In this document: positions 30,462-41,032 of the stretch, one piece after another | Layout: every line of letters starts with the position of its first letter | Position numbering within the stretch: the stretch's first letter is position 1 | DNA from: Candidatus Aminicenantota bacterium | Lineage (GTDB): Bacteria > Acidobacteriota > Aminicenantia > Aminicenantales > Aminicenantaceae | Direction of reading: 5' to 3' | Assembly (NCBI GenBank): GCA_020344415.1 | Contig: CP070825.1 | Span: 3,463,721-3,527,720 of the forward strand | DNA length: 64,000 bases | Translations under genes and position numbers: made by a program | Notes under the pieces: model-generated | Told to the model about the DNA's origin: nothing | Seen by the model: only the letters and a program-made list of their open reading frames with translations | Database searches by the model: none

Positions 30462-30483
30462 AAAAGGGGACTGTCCCTTTTTT
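30462..30483. terminator. Dispersed GGGGACTGTCCC palindrome, copy 2, between convergent genes
   Basis: The palindrome begins right after the helicase stop (30461), and its T-run merges into the stop codon of sppA (30482). It thus sits exactly where a bidirectional terminator is expected for both genes. One C has been lost relative to the other copies. Confidence 0.75.
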
Positions 30484-32191
30484 ATTTTGGTGTGAGCCAG
30501 AGAGGCATGACCGCTAATGCTCTTTCTTGTTCCATGAACTCGAGAGTAGAGAGGATTTTTTGGAGATCTGGTTTGAAGTTGAGCTTTGACCGGGCCTGCC
30601 CTCTTCCGAAAAGAGCGCTTAGAAATGAAACTCTCTTTGGCCAGATAACGAGTTTCACACTTCTTTCAGCTGGAATGTCTGCCATTTCCTTTGCTAACTC
30701 GAGTGCGCGCGATAGACCTCCGATTTCATCTACCAGGCCCTGCTTTTTAGCTTGAATGCCTGTCCACACCCGGCCTTTTCCGATTTCATCAACCTCTTCC
30801 TTGGACATATTCCTTCCTTCAGCGACTTTAGCCAGGAATTGGTCATAAATCCACAAGATTTCGTTTTTGATCTCGCGTCTCTCTTCAGGCGTGAAGCTTC
30901 TGAAAGTCGAAAAAAAATCAGCTCTTTTTCCATATGTGAGTTTTTCTGCAGTGATTCCCAGTTTTTCATAGAGATTGGACATATTGAATTTGCCTGAGAT
31001 AACCCCTATAGAGCCTGTGAGAGTCTGAGGCTGAGCTATGATTTTGTGGGCGGCCATAGAGACCCAGTATCCGCCAGAACCGGCTACGTCTGACATGGAT
31101 ACGACAATCGGTTTTTCCTTCTGGGTTAAAAATACTTCCCTCCAGATAACATCCGAAGCTACAGCAGAACCTCCGGGGCTGTCCACTCGGAAGACTACAG
31201 CTGCAATGGATTTATCTTTGCGGGCCATTCTAATCCAGCGAGATACGGTGGCGCCTCCCATTGTTTGAGAGAGACTTTCACCGCTGTGAATGAGTCCCTG
31301 GCCGTAAATAAGTGCGACCTTTTTTCCTCTATTCAGCCCTGATGAGGAAATCCTGATCTTTTTGTACCGCTCATGGGTGATTCGGTAAAGTTTTTTCCCT
31401 TCCTCATTGATAAGCTGTTCAAGTTCGTCCTGGAAAAGGAGATCATCCACAAGCCCTGCCTTTAAGGCACTTTCTCCATGGTAGAAGCCTTGGTCAATCA
31501 GCTCCTTTATTTCCTCTTCGGTTTTTCCCCGGGCTTCCGCTACCCTTTTTACATACTGAGAGAAGAGACTGCCATAAATGGATTCCATCATTCTCTTGTG
31601 AGCCGGTGTGAATTTTTCTTCTGTGAACATGTTGTAGGCCGTCTTATACTCTTCCACATGCTCGAATTCTGCCTTGATGCCTAATTTATCCAAGGTATTC
31701 TTGAAGAACGGAACGTAACCTCCGATGCCGTTAATACCCAGCCAGCCCAGAGGGTGGAGGATTATCTTGTCGCAGGCAGTCGCAAGGAAGTACTCCTTGT
31801 CAAAATCAGGGGCTTCATCTATATACGCGTAAGTTTTCTTTTCTGATTTTCTGAAATCTAAGATGGCCTCTCGTATTTCTTCTATTTTTCCCCAATCACA
31901 TCCAAGATGGCCAAGTCGCAAAACAATGCATTGGATGCGCTTATCCACTTTCGCTTTTCGGATGTTCATCCATATATCATGCATGGATAAGGGCTCTCCC
32001 ATGAAAAAATCCATTGGAAAACTGGGCATGTGTCTCTCTTGTAATTCGCCCGAGAGTTTGATTTCCAGATAGGAATGAGCCTTCACAGTGGGAGGTCTTC
32101 CTATCTGGTAATAAACAAAGGAGACTATGGTTGCCACAAGCAGAAAGAAAAAAACTATAAATATGATCAGAACATATGTTCCTTTTTTCAT
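30482..32191 (-). CDS. sppA: Signal peptide peptidase SppA, long form
   Basis: A 569-residue membrane serine protease with one N-terminal membrane helix (about 6-28) and the tandem-domain architecture of the 67K type. The catalytic dyad is visible: Lys183 in the EEYKTAYNMF segment of the first domain, and Ser372 in VAGSGGYW of the second, followed by PQTLTGSIGVI. It degrades residual signal peptides in the inner membrane. GGTGAAAAA precedes the ATG. It is convergent with the helicase gene. Confidence 0.95.
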   Translation of the reverse strand: MKKGTYVLIIFIVFFFLLVATIVSFVYYQIGRPPTVKAHSYLEIKLSGELQERHMPSFPMDFFMGEPLSMHDIWMNIRKAKVDKRIQCIVLRLGHLGCDWGKIEEIREAILDFRKSEKKTYAYIDEAPDFDKEYFLATACDKIILHPLGWLGINGIGGYVPFFKNTLDKLGIKAEFEHVEEYKTAYNMFTEEKFTPAHKRMMESIYGSLFSQYVKRVAEARGKTEEEIKELIDQGFYHGESALKAGLVDDLLFQDELEQLINEEGKKLYRITHERYKKIRISSSGLNRGKKVALIYGQGLIHSGESLSQTMGGATVSRWIRMARKDKSIAAVVFRVDSPGGSAVASDVIWREVFLTQKEKPIVVSMSDVAGSGGYWVSMAAHKIIAQPQTLTGSIGVISGKFNMSNLYEKLGITAEKLTYGKRADFFSTFRSFTPEERREIKNEILWIYDQFLAKVAEGRNMSKEEVDEIGKGRVWTGIQAKKQGLVDEIGGLSRALELAKEMADIPAERSVKLVIWPKRVSFLSALFGRGQARSKLNFKPDLQKILSTLEFMEQERALAVMPLWLTPK

Positions 32192-32532: not shown

Positions 32533-33453
32533 ATGAATGCTCTAGAGATTGAAGATATTTCTAAAAAGTTTGGCGATTTTTACGCTGTGAGAAAACTTTC
32601 TTTCAAGATTCCACAGGGAAGTATTTATGGTCTTCTGGGCCCAAACGGCGCGGGGAAAACCACAACGATCCGCATGGCAATGAACATCATCATCCCCGAT
32701 GAAGGTTCTATCCGGATTCTCAATCAGAAGATGGATGAGGCAATGAAAGAAAGGATAGGTTATCTCCCAGAAGACAGAGGACTCTATCCTAAAATGAAAG
32801 TCGGGGAACTTCTTCTTTTCCTTGCCGAAATAAAAGGGCTCAAAGGAACAAAGGCTCGAGGGGAGATTGATTTCTGGCTGAAGAGGTTTGACCTTTCGGA
32901 ATGGAAAAACAAAAAAGTTGAGGAGCTCTCACGGGGTATGCAGCAGAAGCTCCAGTTCATCGTCACCGTCATCCATAAACCCGAGCTCATTATACTCGAT
33001 GAGCCGTTTGGAGGCTTGGATCCTGTAAACACGAAACTCCTGAAGGATATCATGCTGGAGATGAAGGATATGGGAGGAACCATCATATTTTCCACGCACC
33101 GCATGGAGCAAGTCGAGATGATCTGCGACAATATCTGCCTCATCAATAAAGCAGAAAGGGTATTGGAGGGTAACTTAAGCCAGATCAAAAAGCAGTACGG
33201 AAAGAATACGGTTGTTTTGGATTACGAGGGAGATGCAGATTTTATCCAGGACTTTCCCGAAGTAGAAAAAATCGATGACTATGGTAAGTTCATGGAGATT
33301 AGACTGAAAGAACTGACTGATCCCAAGGCACTGCTCCCCAAACTTGTAGGAAAGGTCGGCATCAATAAATTTGAAATCAGAGAGCCGACGTTAAATGCCA
33401 TTTTCATCGATAAAGTAGGAGTAAAAAATGAGAAAGATACTGTCAGTCATTAA
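32533..33453 (+). CDS. natA: ABC transporter ATP-binding protein, NatA-like
   Basis: A 306-residue ATPase. Walker A is GPNGAGKTT (about residues 37-45), the signature is LSRGMQQKL, and Walker B is LIILDEPFGGLDP, with an H-loop FSTHRM. The C-terminal DUF4162-like extension is typical of sodium/drug exporters of the NatA type. It pairs with the downstream permease, whose start overlaps by 26 bases. The substrate cannot be told from sequence. Confidence 0.9.
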   Translation: MNALEIEDISKKFGDFYAVRKLSFKIPQGSIYGLLGPNGAGKTTTIRMAMNIIIPDEGSIRILNQKMDEAMKERIGYLPEDRGLYPKMKVGELLLFLAEIKGLKGTKARGEIDFWLKRFDLSEWKNKKVEELSRGMQQKLQFIVTVIHKPELIILDEPFGGLDPVNTKLLKDIMLEMKDMGGTIIFSTHRMEQVEMICDNICLINKAERVLEGNLSQIKKQYGKNTVVLDYEGDADFIQDFPEVEKIDDYGKFMEIRLKELTDPKALLPKLVGKVGINKFEIREPTLNAIFIDKVGVKNEKDTVSH

Positions 33454-34741
33454 AAGGGAATATCTTCAGATAGTAAGAACCAAAGGGTTTATCATTGGTA
33501 CTATCATAGGCCCGATCCTTATGGCTGCCCTGATAGGAGTTCCCATTGTCGTTCAACTGATTTCTGTGGCAAAGCAGGAAACAGTCGGGGTGATTGATGC
33601 AAGCCGGGAAATATTTGAAGATCTGAATAAGAAGCTGGACCAAGAGAACTATAAGCTTAAAGATGGAAGACGCCATTACATCCTTGAAAAATACGAGCCT
33701 TCTGCTTATGTTGCCAATGTCGAGGAGTTGAGGAGTCAGTTGAGCAAAAAAGTGCTGAATAAGGAGCTTTCTGCCTATCTATTTATCCCCGCGGATATTT
33801 TAAAGACTGAAGAGACTGAATCGAAACGTAGAGCAGTCGAATATGTCTCCCAACACACAACCGATTTTGAGGAATTAAGAGATCTCAATGGAGCATTAAA
33901 CAATGTTGTCATCGGAAAGAGGTTGAAAAAAGAAGGTTTGGATCCTTTGAAAATTACCCAGTACATCATGCCTGTGGGTCTAAAGCCTATTAAAGTGACC
34001 AAAAGGGGAGAAGAAGAAGATACGATGGGGACTTTTTTCATTTCTTATTTTTTGGCTCTGGTCCTCTATATGGCCCTTTTCATCTATGGGGCTATGATTA
34101 TGAGAGGAGTCATCGAGGAAAAAACTTCTAGAGTTGTGGAGGTTATCCTTTCTTCCTTAAGGCCTTTTCAGCTTATGGTCGGGAAAATTTTGGGCATTGG
34201 TGCTGTGGGTTTGACTCAGTTTTCTATTTGGGCTCTATTCGGATTTGTTGCTACTCGGTACAGTAAATCATTGGCCTCCGGGCTTTTCCCGACAGGAGAG
34301 GCGCCCCCCTTGCCAAGCTTTCCACCTTATATCTTCATTTATTTTGTGATTTTCTTCATCCTTGGCTATTTTCTATATGGAACTTTGTACGCGACCATTG
34401 GGTCCATGGTTAATTCAGAAAAGGAAGCCCAGCAGCTCCTTTTTCCAATTACCATGTTTTTGATTATTCCCATATTGCTCATGATACTTATCATAAGGAC
34501 CCCTGACAGTTCCATATCTGTAGCTTTATCCTTGGTGCCGTTTTTTACTCCGATTTTGATGCTCCTGCGCGTCTGTGTTCTCCTTCCACCCTTTGTGCAA
34601 GTGGGAGGTTCAATACTGCTCCTCGCCTTGACGGTTTTGTTTATGATCTGGCTTGCGTCAAAGATTTATCGGGTAGGAATTTTAATGTACGGAAAACCTC
34701 CGAACCTGGCTGAAATCGTCCGATGGATACGGTATAAATAA
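33428..34741 (+). CDS. natB: ABC-2 type permease, NatB-like
   Basis: A 437-residue membrane protein. It has an N-terminal membrane helix (about 15-45), a periplasmic domain of about 170 residues, and five or six C-terminal helices with the ABC-2 signature region EEKTSRVVEVILSSLRPFQLM. This is the NatB/ABC2_membrane_3 architecture. A ribosome binding site (AGGAG) lies inside the end of natA. It exports an unknown substrate (in NatAB, sodium). Confidence 0.88.
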   Translation: MRKILSVIKREYLQIVRTKGFIIGTIIGPILMAALIGVPIVVQLISVAKQETVGVIDASREIFEDLNKKLDQENYKLKDGRRHYILEKYEPSAYVANVEELRSQLSKKVLNKELSAYLFIPADILKTEETESKRRAVEYVSQHTTDFEELRDLNGALNNVVIGKRLKKEGLDPLKITQYIMPVGLKPIKVTKRGEEEDTMGTFFISYFLALVLYMALFIYGAMIMRGVIEEKTSRVVEVILSSLRPFQLMVGKILGIGAVGLTQFSIWALFGFVATRYSKSLASGLFPTGEAPPLPSFPPYIFIYFVIFFILGYFLYGTLYATIGSMVNSEKEAQQLLFPITMFLIIPILLMILIIRTPDSSISVALSLVPFFTPILMLLRVCVLLPPFVQVGGSILLLALTVLFMIWLASKIYRVGILMYGKPPNLAEIVRWIRYK

Positions 34742-34848: not shown

Positions 34849-34941
34849 TTTAAAAACCAAGGAATTTTTTATTTTTTTGGGGGTAAACCTTTTTTAAAAA
34901 GCTTCCGTTATACACTTCGGAGATTCAATCGCGAGGCTAAA

Positions 34942-35367
34942 ATGAGAATTTTTAAGAGAAAGACCCAGATTGTTGCGATTGTCTTTCTTGTTCTGTTTCT
35001 GAGCGCCTGTTTCAACGTTCGAATCATAGAAAATGTCAAGAGCCCGGACCGCTATTTTAAGAAGGCTTACGGGCAGATTGAAGAAATTCATAGGAGATAT
35101 CCTGACCGAGAGCGAAGGCCCGATACCATACAAATATTGATTTATGAGGAAAAAGAGAACAAAATAGTAAAGGTTTCTACCCCTATATGGCTGGCTAACG
35201 GCTGCCTTGATTTGGGTATGTGGGCAGCTGAAAAGGAAGGCGAGATCAATTTTGAGGGTCGATACGATTTCGATTGGAGTGATATCCGAGACCTTAGTCG
35301 AATCGGTTCAGGACTCCTGGTCGAAATTGAGGACGAAAAAAACAAAGTATTAATTTGGCTCAAGTGA
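34942..35367 (+). CDS. Lipoprotein with the shared C-terminal domain (member 1)
   Basis: A 141-residue lipoprotein with a good lipobox (LFLSAC, Cys at about residue 23). The mature part has a helical region (SPDRYFKKAYGQIEEIHRRY) and a C-terminal domain of about 75 residues with strand TIQILIYEE, then VSTPIWLANGCLDLG, YDFDWSDIRDL, and the terminal strands GLLVEIEDEKNKVLIWLK. The same pattern ends the proteins at 36804 and 37785. It is probably outer-membrane or periplasmic. It lies just upstream of an ECF sigma factor gene. Function unknown. Confidence 0.8.
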   Translation: MRIFKRKTQIVAIVFLVLFLSACFNVRIIENVKSPDRYFKKAYGQIEEIHRRYPDRERRPDTIQILIYEEKENKIVKVSTPIWLANGCLDLGMWAAEKEGEINFEGRYDFDWSDIRDLSRIGSGLLVEIEDEKNKVLIWLK

Positions 35368-35417
35368 GGGAACGAGACCAGGCAATTTTCTCGGAGAACT
35401 TCCAGAAAGAATAAAGA

Positions 35418-35999
35418 ATGGAACAAGAAAGACTCAGGGAAGAAGAAGATATTTATTCCCTTGTAGAGAAAATCAAGGAAGGCGATAGAGAGGCTTTCAT
35501 GACTGTTACTCGGCTTTACCAGAGGAAGGTTTTCTTGCTGGCTTATTCTTTTTTTCAAAACAAAGAAGATGCTTTGGACATTGTTCAGGAGACATTTTTA
35601 AGGTTTTACCAGAAGGCAAACCTGTTTCAGAAAGGGAAGAATTTTCAGAGCTGGCTTCTTCAGATCGCCAAAAACCTCTGTATAGATTATTACCGGAAAC
35701 ATCACAGTAAAAATAATAAATACGATAGGGAGGTTCCCATAGAGGAGATGAATCTGCCAGAAAAAAATTCACATGGCTGTTATCTTTCGTCTGATTTGAA
35801 GGAGATTTTCTCCTCCTGTCTTAATAAGCTAGCCGAAAGACAGAGGATGATTTTTGTCATGAAGCATTATAATCAGCATAAATACAGCGAAATTGCCCAG
35901 ATTTTAAATATATCTCTGGGAACGGTAAAATCCCTCCATTTTAAAGCTGTTCATAATTTAAGGGGCTTGATGAACCCTTATTTTGGGAGAGAAGGATGA
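35418..35999 (+). CDS. ECF-type RNA polymerase sigma factor
   Basis: A 193-residue sigma-70 family protein of the extracytoplasmic-function type. Region 2 spans about residues 20-95 (REAFMTVTRLYQRKVFLLAY, DALDIVQETFLRFY, FQSWLLQIAKNLCIDYYRKH). Region 4 spans about 130-185 (LNKLAERQRMIFVMKHYN, YSEIAQILNISLGTVKSLHF). Its stop codon overlaps the ATG of the anti-sigma gene. It likely drives a small regulon that may include the three domain-sharing secreted proteins around it; autoregulation is inference. Confidence 0.93.
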   Translation: MEQERLREEEDIYSLVEKIKEGDREAFMTVTRLYQRKVFLLAYSFFQNKEDALDIVQETFLRFYQKANLFQKGKNFQSWLLQIAKNLCIDYYRKHHSKNNKYDREVPIEEMNLPEKNSHGCYLSSDLKEIFSSCLNKLAERQRMIFVMKHYNQHKYSEIAQILNISLGTVKSLHFKAVHNLRGLMNPYFGREG

Positions 36000-36802
36000 T
36001 GGAATGTAAAAAAATTAGAAAAGACTTGGTGGCTTTCCTGTATGGGGAGCTCGAAGGAAAAGAAAAAATTCGTTTTACATCGCACCTGGATTCGTGTCCC
36101 CAATGCAAGAGTGAGCTGGAACAATTAAGGGTAGCCTTGAACGGAGCTAATTCTTTAAAACCTAATATCGAGGAGACGATGGCCTCTGTTGACTGGGAGG
36201 CTCTTCCTTCAAGGATTACTGACTATGTCTTCAAAGAGGAGGTTCGTTTCCCTCAGGAGTCATGGTTCACGCGGCTCACAACGTTCCTCATCCAGCCCAA
36301 ATTGAGGCCTGTCCTTGCAGGGATTCTCTTGGGCGTTCTGATAGGTTCATTTACTACATATATGATTTTTAAGATCCCTCAACCTGGAGAGACGCAGACA
36401 GCAGAGCTTTTCGCACCTCAAGATTTCTTGGAAAGGGTAGAGCTTCAGATGGCCAGAAAAGAGACTATAAACTATCTAGAGGAGAGCCAATACTTGCTCT
36501 TGGACTTTGCTGAATTTCCTTCTAAGAAAAAGGCAGAGTTCTGGCGGAGCGAATTTACTTCCCAGAGAGCAAGGAAACTTCTTGCAAAGAAAAAATACAT
36601 CAATCCCCAACTGAGTAAATTCAAAATGGCCAAGGCTAAGGCGATATGCGACCAGATAGAACTCCTGTTCTACGAGCTAAGTCAGATAAGCGTAGAGCTT
36701 TCAATAGAGCAAGTCGAGGAAATCCAGAGGCTGATCGATGAAAAACAGCTTCTATTGAAAATAAAATTATTGAAGAAAGAATTGGAAGAAAGTGAGGTAT
36801 AA
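35996..36802 (+). CDS. Zinc-type anti-sigma factor (ZAS/zf-HC2) with membrane helix
   Basis: A 268-residue protein. The N-terminal ZAS domain has Cys4 and the HxxxCxxC motif (H30, C34, C37 in HLDSCPQC). One membrane helix lies at about residues 102-124 (PVLAGILLGVLIGSFTTYMIF). The C-terminal 140 residues are periplasmic and helical. It should bind the preceding sigma factor in the cytoplasm and release it on an envelope or redox signal; this follows from the family. Its 3' end nearly touches the next gene. Confidence 0.88.
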   Translation: MMECKKIRKDLVAFLYGELEGKEKIRFTSHLDSCPQCKSELEQLRVALNGANSLKPNIEETMASVDWEALPSRITDYVFKEEVRFPQESWFTRLTTFLIQPKLRPVLAGILLGVLIGSFTTYMIFKIPQPGETQTAELFAPQDFLERVELQMARKETINYLEESQYLLLDFAEFPSKKKAEFWRSEFTSQRARKLLAKKKYINPQLSKFKMAKAKAICDQIELLFYELSQISVELSIEQVEEIQRLIDEKQLLLKIKLLKKELEESEV

Positions 36803-36803
36803 A

Positions 36804-37646
36804 GTGAGAAAAATAAATATAAGTTTAGCAATCCTTCTCCTCTCCACCTCTCTCCTTCAGGCATATACACAAACACAGCCAGATGAGAAGCTCTTTCAGG
36901 AGGCGAAGATTCTCATCTTCGATAAGAAATGGGAAAAGGCACAGGAGAAACTGGAAACCCTTATAGATAGATATCCGGATAGCACCTGGTTCTCGCAAGC
37001 TGTCTTCTACAAAGCCAAGTGTCTGGAAGGGCAGAGGGGGAAAGAGGTGGAAGCCTTGGAAGTCTATAAAAGCTTTATACAGCTTGAAGAACGGAGTAAG
37101 AGCTTAGCCGAGGAAGCTGAGGTATCCATCATCGATTTAGCTTATGATCTCTATGAGGACGGGGAAAGGTCATATCTGAGAGAAATAGAAAGAAGGCTTT
37201 TCAATTCCAATAGAGTCGTCAAATATTATGCGGCTTTTAAACTCAGTTATGTGAAGGATAAGAAGATTGCTGCTAGAGCTGTCCCTGTTTTGAAAAGTAT
37301 TGCCAGAGAGGGAGAAGACGATGAAATCAGAGATAGAGCTAAAATAGCATTGCTCCGTGTTGATCCGAGCGCTTTGAAAGATTTTGAAGAGGAAAGATCT
37401 GAGAGCCGAATAAGAGTTTTGCACCTCAGGGTCAATAGGGTTGGTAAAAGAGAGCCGGTGTTTTCCATGGATATCCCCTGGGCTCTAGCCGATCTTGTTT
37501 TTGGAGCTATCCCTGAAAATGAAAAGGAAGTGATGCGAAAAGAAGGCTATGATATAGATAGAGTTGCTGACGAACTCACTCGATTTAGGGGGAAAATCAT
37601 AGAAATAAGAGGTAACGGAACAATCATTAAGATATGGGTTGATTAG
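36804..37646 (+). CDS. Secreted TPR/HEAT-like protein with the shared C-terminal domain (member 2)
   Basis: A 280-residue protein with a signal peptide (about 1-22, ISLAILLLSTSLLQAY). TPR-like helices follow (FQEAKILIFDKKWEKAQEKL, DRYPDSTWFSQAVFYKAKCL), as in YbgF/BamD-type repeats, and then a HEAT-like stretch. The C-terminal domain (IRVLHLRVNRV, FSMDIPWALADLVFGAI, YDIDRVADELTRF, KIIEIRGNGTIIKIWVD) aligns with those of its neighbours. I use GTG at 36804, well spaced behind GAGG, rather than the GTG at 36792. It is the third gene of the sigma operon. Confidence 0.82.
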   Translation: MRKINISLAILLLSTSLLQAYTQTQPDEKLFQEAKILIFDKKWEKAQEKLETLIDRYPDSTWFSQAVFYKAKCLEGQRGKEVEALEVYKSFIQLEERSKSLAEEAEVSIIDLAYDLYEDGERSYLREIERRLFNSNRVVKYYAAFKLSYVKDKKIAARAVPVLKSIAREGEDDEIRDRAKIALLRVDPSALKDFEEERSESRIRVLHLRVNRVGKREPVFSMDIPWALADLVFGAIPENEKEVMRKEGYDIDRVADELTRFRGKIIEIRGNGTIIKIWVD

Positions 37647-37651
37647 TAATA

Positions 37652-37759
37652 TGTCATTGCGAGGAGCGGAAGAGATTCCTTACTTCGCTCGGAACAGGCT
37701 GTGCAATCTCCTGAAAAAAGCATGAGATTGCTTCAACCCTTAAGGTTTCGCAATGACAG
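37652..37759. repeat. Dispersed repeat with TGTCATTGCGA termini
   Basis: TGTCATTGCGA at 37652 and TCGCAATGACA ending at 37759 form an 11-bp perfect inverted repeat. Internal inverted GCAATCTC / GAGATTGC motifs are also present. It is the same class as the element at 25508-25651 and separates members 2 and 3 of the domain-sharing secreted proteins. Confidence 0.75.
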
Positions 37760-37784
37760 CTAAAATATCATCAGGAGGAAAGAA

Positions 37785-38171
37785 ATGAAAAAACTGGCGA
37801 TTATCGTGTTAATCGTTTTTGTCTTCACACTTCTTTTAGCCAATCTAACGAATGCAAAAAATGAGGATGACCTTCAGGCCATCAAGAAGGCCGTTAAGAA
37901 AAATCCAAAGTATGAAGCAGACAAGGAAGTGAAATGGTTCAAGGTTCTTGTCACGGATAACCGGACAAAAAAAGACAAGGTTAAGATTACGGTTCCCATT
38001 TCTTTGATTGAATTTTTTATCAAGTGCTCGCACGATAAACATCTAAAGGTTCACAGGGATGAATGCGATGTTGATTTGAAAGAACTGTTCAAAGAGCTGA
38101 AGAAACTCGGCCCGGCTGTTTTCATCGAGGTTGTCGAAGAGGATGCTACAGTAAAAGTCTGGTTTGAATAG
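37785..38171 (+). CDS. Small secreted protein consisting of the shared domain (member 3)
   Basis: A 128-residue protein with a signal peptide (about 1-25, LAIIVLIVFVFTLLLANLTNA). The single domain matches the C-termini of the proteins at 34942 and 36804: FKVLVTDNRTKKDKVKITVP, ISLIEFFIKC, CDVDLKELFKELKKLG, VFIEVVEEDATVKVWFE. A strong ribosome binding site (AGGAGG) precedes the ATG. The stop codon is followed at once by a GGGGACTGTCCCC terminator-like palindrome. Function unknown; likely periplasmic. Confidence 0.8.
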   Translation: MKKLAIIVLIVFVFTLLLANLTNAKNEDDLQAIKKAVKKNPKYEADKEVKWFKVLVTDNRTKKDKVKITVPISLIEFFIKCSHDKHLKVHRDECDVDLKELFKELKKLGPAVFIEVVEEDATVKVWFE

Positions 38172-38245: not shown

Positions 38246-41032
38246 TCATCGCCCAGCTCTCAACCTTATTTGAAACTTAGTTCCTCCTTTTCGATCCAGT
38301 TTGATTGTGCCCTTGAGCTGGTCTTCAGCCAGGATGGTGACAAGATGAAGCCCGAGGGATTCTGTTTTCCTGAAGTCCACATCTTCTGGCAAGCCAATGC
38401 CGTTATCGCTGACAGTGAGCTGGATCTCTTCTTCATTCAAGGGACGCATTGTGATATTGATTTGTCCTTTTTGACTGTCTGGGAAGGCGTGCTTCAAAGA
38501 ATTTGTAATGAGCTCATTGATGATTAAGCCGCAGGGAATGGCTGTATTAATATCTAACAGAATATCCTTGATGTTTATTTTAAATTTAATCTCACTATCG
38601 GTAGTTCCATAAGAATAGAAAAGATGACTTGTTAGATTTCGAATGTATTCTTCAAAGTTAATCTTGGCAAACTGCTTGGACTCGTATAGAAATTCATGAA
38701 TAAGTGCCATAGACCTGACTCGGTTTTGAGTGCTTTTGAATGTCTCCCGAGTCTGCTCTTCCTTAACATTTCTGGACTGGAGACTGAGAAGGCTGGATAT
38801 TATTTGCATGTTATTCTTGACACGATGGTGAATCTCCTTGAGTAAGACTTCCTTCTCCCTTAGCGAAGCTCTGATTTTTATGTCTGCATTCGTTTGCTCG
38901 ACCCGAAGAGATACAATATTCACGACTTCTGAGAGGATTAATTTCTCAAGCTCGCTCCATTTTTTGTCTTTTTTTTGTTCAGAAAAAGTGAAAAGCCCTT
39001 TTGGATTATTCATGTCTCCATAAGGGAGAACTAAATAAGATTTTATGTGATGTTTCTTTAGCTTGGATGAAATATAAAGTTTTACGGTTTGTCTTAAGCC
39101 TGGGATTTTTATAATCTTATTGATATCTTTGGGTATCTCAATATAATTCCTGCCAAAAAAAAGTTTGGCTATGTCAAACGATATATCTTCTCCAAGGCTA
39201 GATCCTAGTTCCTTTTTACGCCACTGCAGTTCAGTAACATAAGCATTTCTTTCAGGAGCGAATCTTAGGTAACTTGCCCTGCTCACATCCAGGACAGGTC
39301 CGACAGTACCCAGAAGGTTCTGAATCAAATCTATTTCTTCTATTAGTGATGGATCAGAAGCTTTTTTCCAGATTTCTGCTCTGAGTTCATTGTATTGACT
39401 TTGGGTGATTTGTGCTTCTTCAGCCTGCTTGCGCTCGGTAATGTCTAAGATGGCTGCCTGAATGGCTGGTTTTCCTTTGTAGTTGATTTGGTTGGCATAC
39501 ATCTCAAGCCAACCAACTGACCCGTCTTTCCGGATCCCGCGATATTCGTAGTGTTGAGCAAGAGATTTTCCTGCCATGCGGTCCAAGAAGCGCCCCCAAA
39601 TAAGCGCGTGATCTTCAGAATGAACCATTGCCTTCACTTTTTCAGGCTGAAGAGCCAAGAGTTCCTCAACGGTGAATCCGCTTATCCTAGCAAAGGCATT
39701 GTTGGCGAATACGATGCGAAAGTCTTGGACAATAATTATTGCCTGAAGTGATTGCTCAATCAGAGTTCTATATTTCTCCTCGTTTTCCTTTAATGATTCC
39801 TCCGCCTGCTTTCGCTCTGTGATGTCCGTCAGAACTCCATGTGCACCAATTATCTGATTTCCCTTAAAGGTGGGCCTGTTAGAGGTTCTTACCCAGCGAA
39901 TTTCGCCGGACTTGGTCACAATCCTGTATTCCCCTGTTGTATTTTGCCCTTCAAGGACTTTCTGAAAAGCCTTGGTGCTACCCGGCAGGTCCTCTTTGTA
40001 AATATACTTAGCGAAAGGCCGGCCGATGATATCCGAGGGGCTATATTCGAAAAGCAATTTCACGACAGGACTGGCATAAGTCACTACTCCATTCTTGTCG
40101 ACCGCATAAATAACATCGCTTATATTCTCTATCAAGTCACGATATTTTTCTTCGCTTTCTCTCAGTGCATCCTCTGCATGCGTCCGCTCAGTGATGTCTC
40201 TTAAGATTCCTATTACCTTCACTTCTCCTTTTTTGCCGATACCGACTGTTGCTGCTTCAACTGTTTTTATATTTCTATCTTTGGCTATAATCCTGAATTC
40301 ATATCTGCTGGGCACTTCCTTTCCTGTTCTTCTTGTTGCCTCTCTTCCTTTTATTAATTTTATGTCATCGGGGTGAATAATATCCCAGAAGTTGAATCCT
40401 TTGCTGCAAACTTCTTTTGATGTATAGCCAGTTAATTTTTCGAATGCAGGATTTACAAATTTAAAGCCTTCAGACGTAATAATATAGATCGCATCATTTG
40501 CATTTTGCACTAGGCCGCGATATTTTTTCTCACTTTCCATTAGTTTGTCTTCTGCCTCTTTGCGCTCTTCTATCTCTTTTTTTAGTTTCTTGTTTGTTTT
40601 AAGCAGCGCAGCTGTGCGCTCCTTGACGCGCCGTTCCAGTTCAGCATGAGCTTTTTGTAATTCGTTCTCCATCCTTTTCCTTCGGCTAATGTTTCTAGCG
40701 ACACCAAAAGCACCGATAACATTTCTCTGGGAATCAAATATTGGAGAGGCGTTATTTAAAATGTGGATGTAAGAGCCTTTTTTGGTTTTATATCGGTATT
40801 CCATGTTGTCGACAGCTGTGCCCTCTAACAGCATGGAAAACTGCTTTATTACCCTTGCCAGATCCGCTGGATGGACTAGTTTAAAACCGTTTATTTTATT
40901 TATTTCTTCTTTTGAATATCCCAAATTTTTCTTGAACGCCTTATTCACAAATAAAAAATTTCCCTTTAGATCCACTGTAAAAATCATATCCGTGGAGGTT
41001 TCGACCAATAATTGATATTTTTCCTGACTCAT
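38246..41032 (-). CDS. Multi-PAS sensor histidine kinase (HisKA_2 type)
   Basis: A 928-residue soluble kinase. Four PAS domains (about 1-120, 168-285, 290-410, 415-540) each start with a motif like EEKYRTLIEQS and end with an ITERKQAEE linker. A coiled coil follows PAS1, and a GAF-like region lies at about 545-720. The dimerisation domain has EIHHRVKNNMQIISSLLSLQ with the phospho-acceptor His735. The HATPase region contains INELITNSLKHAF and DNGIGLPE. There is no membrane segment, so it senses a cytoplasmic cue. No response regulator is adjacent. No ribosome binding site is evident before the ATG at 41032. Confidence 0.92.
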   Translation of the reverse strand: MSQEKYQLLVETSTDMIFTVDLKGNFLFVNKAFKKNLGYSKEEINKINGFKLVHPADLARVIKQFSMLLEGTAVDNMEYRYKTKKGSYIHILNNASPIFDSQRNVIGAFGVARNISRRKRMENELQKAHAELERRVKERTAALLKTNKKLKKEIEERKEAEDKLMESEKKYRGLVQNANDAIYIITSEGFKFVNPAFEKLTGYTSKEVCSKGFNFWDIIHPDDIKLIKGREATRRTGKEVPSRYEFRIIAKDRNIKTVEAATVGIGKKGEVKVIGILRDITERTHAEDALRESEEKYRDLIENISDVIYAVDKNGVVTYASPVVKLLFEYSPSDIIGRPFAKYIYKEDLPGSTKAFQKVLEGQNTTGEYRIVTKSGEIRWVRTSNRPTFKGNQIIGAHGVLTDITERKQAEESLKENEEKYRTLIEQSLQAIIIVQDFRIVFANNAFARISGFTVEELLALQPEKVKAMVHSEDHALIWGRFLDRMAGKSLAQHYEYRGIRKDGSVGWLEMYANQINYKGKPAIQAAILDITERKQAEEAQITQSQYNELRAEIWKKASDPSLIEEIDLIQNLLGTVGPVLDVSRASYLRFAPERNAYVTELQWRKKELGSSLGEDISFDIAKLFFGRNYIEIPKDINKIIKIPGLRQTVKLYISSKLKKHHIKSYLVLPYGDMNNPKGLFTFSEQKKDKKWSELEKLILSEVVNIVSLRVEQTNADIKIRASLREKEVLLKEIHHRVKNNMQIISSLLSLQSRNVKEEQTRETFKSTQNRVRSMALIHEFLYESKQFAKINFEEYIRNLTSHLFYSYGTTDSEIKFKINIKDILLDINTAIPCGLIINELITNSLKHAFPDSQKGQINITMRPLNEEEIQLTVSDNGIGLPEDVDFRKTESLGLHLVTILAEDQLKGTIKLDRKGGTKFQIRLRAGR

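Follow-up and report, generated by a model that had tools for sequence, protein, structure and literature searches.

The window analysed here is a 64,000-nucleotide stretch of the genome of a Candidatus Aminicenantota bacterium, in which the region from 34942 to 38171 carries an operon of five genes, all on the + strand. They encode an extracytoplasmic function (ECF) sigma factor, a membrane anti-sigma factor and three exported proteins (a lipoprotein, a TPR/HEAT protein and a small protein) that end in the same type of domain. This is a real and apparently undescribed operon type, widely conserved and of the ECF sigma/anti-sigma kind, with an uncatalogued domain. No paper describing it was found in the literature searched; the main ECF classification lay outside that search and may already list such a gene context.

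Organization of the operon

The sigma factor (35418..35999) contains only regions 2 and 4 (Pfam Sigma70_r2, E 4.7e-18; Sigma70_r4_2, E 5.3e-17). Its gene overlaps by 4 bases that of the anti-sigma factor (35996..36802), which carries a zf-HC2 domain (E 1.7e-8) with the H-x3-C-x2-C motif (HLDSCPQC), as expected for an ECF sigma factor paired with a class I, zinc-binding anti-sigma (ZAS) protein. The hydropathy profile of the anti-sigma presents a single hydrophobic segment (residues 106-124), corresponding to one membrane helix, and the helical C-terminal domain (36413..36799), delineated from a 22-locus alignment and recognized by its own profile, is predicted to be periplasmic. A single base separates the anti-sigma gene from that of the secreted TPR/HEAT protein (36804..37646; TPR_6, E 1.9e-6), with a copy of the shared domain at its end (37404..37643). 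The N-terminal part of this protein resembles BamD/YfiO (TIGR03302) in sequence (OM_YfiO, E 6.5e-8) and in fold (Foldseek, E 5.4e-4), but the match stays below the cut-off (32.4 versus the curated 81.4 bits) and the protein differs from BamD by its C-terminus and by the absence of a lipobox.

The lipoprotein gene (34942..35367), recognized from its open reading frame and the lipobox LSAC, precedes the sigma gene and encodes a copy of the shared domain at its C-terminus (35119..35364). The last gene (37785..38171) encodes a small secreted protein with a signal peptide and the shared domain (37932..38168). The preliminary description of this DNA, made from the letters alone, had proposed these positions and identities; all five genes are indeed present there on the + strand, and Pfam supports the assignments of the sigma factor, the zf-HC2 domain and the TPR protein. 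The TPR and small protein genes are separated by 138 bp (37647-37784), where most relatives have 0-30 bases or an overlap. This gap holds an inverted-repeat element (GTCATTGCGAGGAGCG ... CGCAATGACA) with the appearance of an inserted repeat, of which the window contains no other copy.

The shared C-terminal domain

The C-termini of the lipoprotein, the TPR protein and the small protein can be aligned over about 78 columns, with invariant P, L, D-x-D, E and W residues. Pairwise identity among the three copies of the window is 19-29%, and shuffle tests gave z-scores of 2.6-5.8 in local and 4.2-6.2 in global mode; of 2000 shuffles, 0 or 1 equalled the real score in global mode. The strongest support was obtained for the lipoprotein and the small protein. 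When the own genome was searched with the profile built from this alignment, the lipoprotein domain scored E 2.9e-34. Homology of the three C-termini is settled because one and the same profile retrieves all three protein types in dozens of other genomes. Sequence comparison thus confirms that the three proteins end in a homologous domain of about 77 residues, the alignable module of the preliminary description. AlphaFold2 models, computed from very thin alignments for the small protein and the TPR protein only, predicted the order b-b-a-(a)-a-b-b for both domains (b-b-a-a-b-b in the small protein) with low confidence, the predicted local distance difference test score being about 50-80 in the domain. 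The two modelled copies thus share their order of strands and helices, at that low confidence, rather than appearing as unrelated folds.

No credible match to this domain was detected in Pfam, NCBIfam or PDB sequences with 43 members scanned. A kinship with the C-terminal domain of SHOCT-like proteins had been suggested with hesitation in the preliminary description, and it is borne out as remote homology. A single SHOCT-like, DUF2089-associated protein of the same genome scored above the cut-off, and its C-terminus, which has no Pfam match over cut-off, looks similar to the shared domain. A profile of SHOCT-like C-termini, built from 12 sequences, aligned with that of the shared domain in hhalign (probability 93%, E 2.4e-7), and a wider profile of the domain retrieved SHOCT-like C-termini in hmmsearch with E-values down to 1.9e-8, the best of 1400 shuffles reaching 0.036. 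As judged from these profile comparisons, the shared domain and the one that ends SHOCT-like (PF22746, DUF2089-associated) proteins are remotely homologous. The two groups have this domain in common, but the proteins of the window possess export signals whereas the SHOCT-like proteins appear cytoplasmic. The window proteins cannot themselves be classed as SHOCT-like since Pfam finds no PF22746 helices in them. An action in membrane stress has been proposed for the operons in which the SHOCT-like relatives of the domain are found (PMC11237479). We also considered membership in the Toastrack group and rejected it: Toastrack has been described as a right-handed beta-helix (PMC11237479), whereas the shared domain is predicted to be small, with the b-b-a-(a)-a-b-b order.

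In the same genome, the SHOCT-like operon is transcribed away from another ECF sigma/zf-HC2 pair. Locus L233 (G000:C1:3098500-3108000) has DUF2089-like and SHOCT-like genes on one side and, in divergent orientation, genes for an ECF sigma factor, a zf-HC2 anti-sigma factor and a 319-residue protein that, by eye, looks like a DUF4097/Toastrack protein. On the DUF2089 side, the frame RILIVQKGKNKIRLWFPFILVWL..TM..LYIQTQDQDSKVYITIK, in which TM stands for a membrane segment, looks like the domain split by that segment; its profile score is weak. In plasmid searches, the SHOCT-like query matched an actinobacterial plasmid (Embleya) with 48% identity over its whole length, and the TPR protein gave no match.

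Conservation of the operon and its promoter

The genome of origin (4.43 Mb, one contig) contains only three copies of the domain detectable by profile search, all at this locus. The searches with the shared domain were confined to Acidobacteriota, where it was found in 90 of 99 relatives and, in a phylum-wide draw, in 107 of 297 genomes, some of them from Aminicenantia. The order sigma, anti-sigma, TPR protein is retained in all 21 Aminicenantia loci inspected, with the small protein present at 20 of them, usually behind the TPR gene, and the lipoprotein at 10, in front. The core of sigma, anti-sigma and TPR/HEAT protein with the domain was likewise observed in ten loci from other Acidobacteriota classes, accompanied by the small protein in six and the lipoprotein in three. 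The link between domain and sigma/anti-sigma pair that had been suspected from the single locus therefore recurs across the phylum (99 relatives, 21 and 10 loci, 297-genome draw), and the profile matches did not turn out to lack genomic association with such pairs. This link has a limit outside Aminicenantia: in other Acidobacteriota (L088, L090, L091, L092 and L102), exported proteins of about 185-190 residues carry two copies of the domain and have no adjoining sigma pair in the stretches examined. In four of these five loci they stand alone or beside a second related protein; the two that were scanned have no match in Pfam.

In a tree of 76 domains, built from few columns and with many open forks, the sequences cluster by gene, the lipoprotein clade being supported at 100/99; the triplication therefore probably predates the sampled classes. 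Some operons devoid of the lipoprotein gene (L044, L043) keep a short remnant between promoter and sigma gene, and the open reading frame of the L044 remnant (MRPGMQRLKRIDEENKILIWLE) corresponds to the lipoprotein start and last codons only, as if the middle had been deleted.

The genome contains one further copy of the C-terminal domain of the anti-sigma (E 7e-9), in a paralogous operon (L232, G000:C1:2691000-2703000) encoding a homologous sigma, a zf-HC2 anti-sigma with this same domain, a TPR/HEAT protein of 531 residues and a HEAT protein of 390 residues. It differs from the operon of the window by its long HEAT arrays and by the absence of the shared domain, hence of any small protein or lipoprotein carrying it. 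Because the shared domain is missing from L232 while sigma, anti-sigma and TPR/HEAT protein are kept, the TPR/HEAT protein can be regarded as the core partner, which suggests that these three components form the older functional core, to which the shared domain was added.

Side-by-side comparison of the operon upstream regions revealed a common motif, GTRAACC-N16-CGT(A/T), and an exact match to it, GTAAACC-N16-CGTT, forms a putative ECF-type promoter at 34883..34909 (+ strand), upstream of the lipoprotein gene. With one mismatch allowed, the motif precedes 18 of 22 Aminicenantia operons as first called, with no match in shuffled sequences and with the spacer of 16 far above all other lengths; once misplaced gene starts are allowed for, the remaining four also have it, so that motif and spacer are present in 22/22. 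The shorter form AACC-N16-CGT was detected before eight of the ten operons from other classes, against a shuffle mean of 0.14. Across the 99 genomes we counted 81 exact sites, versus 6 for the reversed pattern; in 48 genomes a site lies on the contig carrying the domain match, and several of the others are operon starts on short contigs. AAC at -35 and CGT at -10 are published ECF boxes, and ECF sigma factors usually activate their own expression (PMC8103513). Since this conserved promoter precedes the operon in all 22 Aminicenantia and in 8/10 other-class loci, autoregulation by its own sigma factor is probable; as evidence for an autoregulated promoter with both boxes, this is sequence conservation.

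The exact sites located outside the operon led to a membrane protein of 66 residues found in 73 of the 99 genomes. When up to two mismatches are tolerated, the motif is present at 17 of the 29 loci examined, in most cases some 58 or 107 bases upstream of the coding match. This protein is a likely second target of the sigma, as far as motif conservation can tell. Exact matches were also seen about 70 bases upstream of a PspC-domain gene (E 4.6e-24) in a single case (L187), and before related small secreted proteins (..NLHVKNIVGDPIKVGEITVIPIIMIDIGYGGG..) in L181 and L190. Pfam gives no match for these small proteins, which are reminiscent of GerW/YtfJ-type proteins. The sites before the PspC gene and the two small secreted proteins may be due to chance.

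The neighbourhood of the operon is less constant. ABC transporter ATPase and permease genes (32533..34741, + strand; Pfam) lie upstream; such genes occur at most loci of the same family and are missing in most other families. Beyond them, an SppA-like S49 peptidase is encoded divergently (30482..32191, - strand; Peptidase_S49, E 1.1e-75). At 16 of the 21 Aminicenantia loci an SppA-like gene adjoins the operon in the opposite orientation, directly divergent where the transporter is missing; SppA was rejected as a fixed partner, being absent from the loci of other classes. A large multi-PAS histidine kinase (HisKA_2 type by Pfam; 38246-41032, - strand) converges on the 3' end of the operon and is not a constant neighbour.

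A possible envelope-monitoring system

The closest known arrangement is RpoE-RseA-RseB of E. coli (MucA/MucB in Pseudomonas), which has the same order of ECF sigma, membrane anti-sigma and exported protein and, like the operon described here, probably, an autoregulated promoter. The exported protein encoded behind the anti-sigma is thus present, as for RseB/MucB, but this third protein has no match to the RseB/MucB sequence family in Pfam or NCBIfam. The present operon differs by its zinc-type anti-sigma, by a TPR/HEAT third protein with a new C-terminal domain, and by the additional small protein and lipoprotein that carry the same domain.

We lean, with moderate confidence, towards an autoregulated ECF sigma/membrane anti-sigma operon that would monitor the cell envelope through exported partners endowed with an adaptor domain. 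The anti-sigma would hold the sigma at the inner membrane, and its helical periplasmic domain would be contacted by the TPR/HEAT protein, for which an RseB-like role can be proposed because its gene follows that of the anti-sigma in every complete operon seen. The shared domain could be a protein-protein adaptor through which the three exported proteins either interact among themselves or compete for a single binding site. Envelope damage would change the occupancy and lead to inactivation of the anti-sigma; the freed sigma would then switch on its own operon along with a small number of envelope genes, with the 66-residue membrane protein as best candidate, and newly made partner proteins would restore inhibition. 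Gene order, tight packing, export signals and promoter motif are directly visible, while binding, sensing and feedback are what we infer from them. In an extended form that we regard as unlikely, the adaptor domain would tie together the components of a single signalling relay. The lipoprotein, anchored in a membrane, the TPR protein, acting as a periplasmic scaffold, and the small protein, free to diffuse, would all use this one fold to compete for the periplasmic domain of the anti-sigma; the sigma would thereby respond to the condition or spacing of the envelope, and in the cytoplasm the domain would serve SHOCT-like complexes.

Several observations weigh against envelope monitoring of this kind. 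About half of the Aminicenantia loci lack the lipoprotein. Confidence in the models of the shared domain is low, and the Foldseek search with the small-protein model found no PDB match. The own copy of the 66-residue protein has only a weak site, at 107, and the regulon predicted from the promoter pattern in the own genome does not exceed the control at one mismatch. AAC-N16-CGT is moreover a general ECF promoter type that another sigma could use in a genome with 17 zf-HC2 matches.

The three domain proteins could alternatively be mere outputs, acting in sigma-dependent envelope repair or as a scaffold without any part in anti-sigma control. We find this possible, if doubtful: all three are encoded behind the promoter that also serves the sigma, the likeness of the TPR part to BamD extends to both sequence and fold, and neither the lipoprotein nor the small protein is obligatory, but the position of the TPR/HEAT gene behind the anti-sigma, in the paralogous operon as well, suits a regulator better than one output among many. 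It is quite unlikely that domain sharing reflects a frozen duplication from one ancestor, with each protein doing something different and no joint function. The copies are old and diverged, with separate tree clusters, and those of the tandem proteins occur away from sigma genes, yet the three copies have stayed in one operon across the phylum instead of dispersing and keep the same residues. A chance likeness of three unrelated C-termini, to which the low pairwise identities and two weak local shuffle tests (z 2.6 and 2.9) might point, is extremely improbable in view of the strong E-values obtained when a single profile recovers all three types across numerous genomes, and of the common strand and helix order of the two modelled copies.

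To our knowledge, the exported partners of zinc-type membrane anti-sigmas are little studied. Here candidate partners are identified, together with a domain that can be tested and a promoter that can be assayed. Culturable Acidobacteriota with the operon would make the question testable. The operon looks like an old, unstudied envelope-monitoring system. It gives much of a little-cultured phylum a sigma system for which a promoter and a few targets can be predicted, and its uncatalogued domain ties exported proteins to the DUF2089/SHOCT-like proteins of membrane stress.

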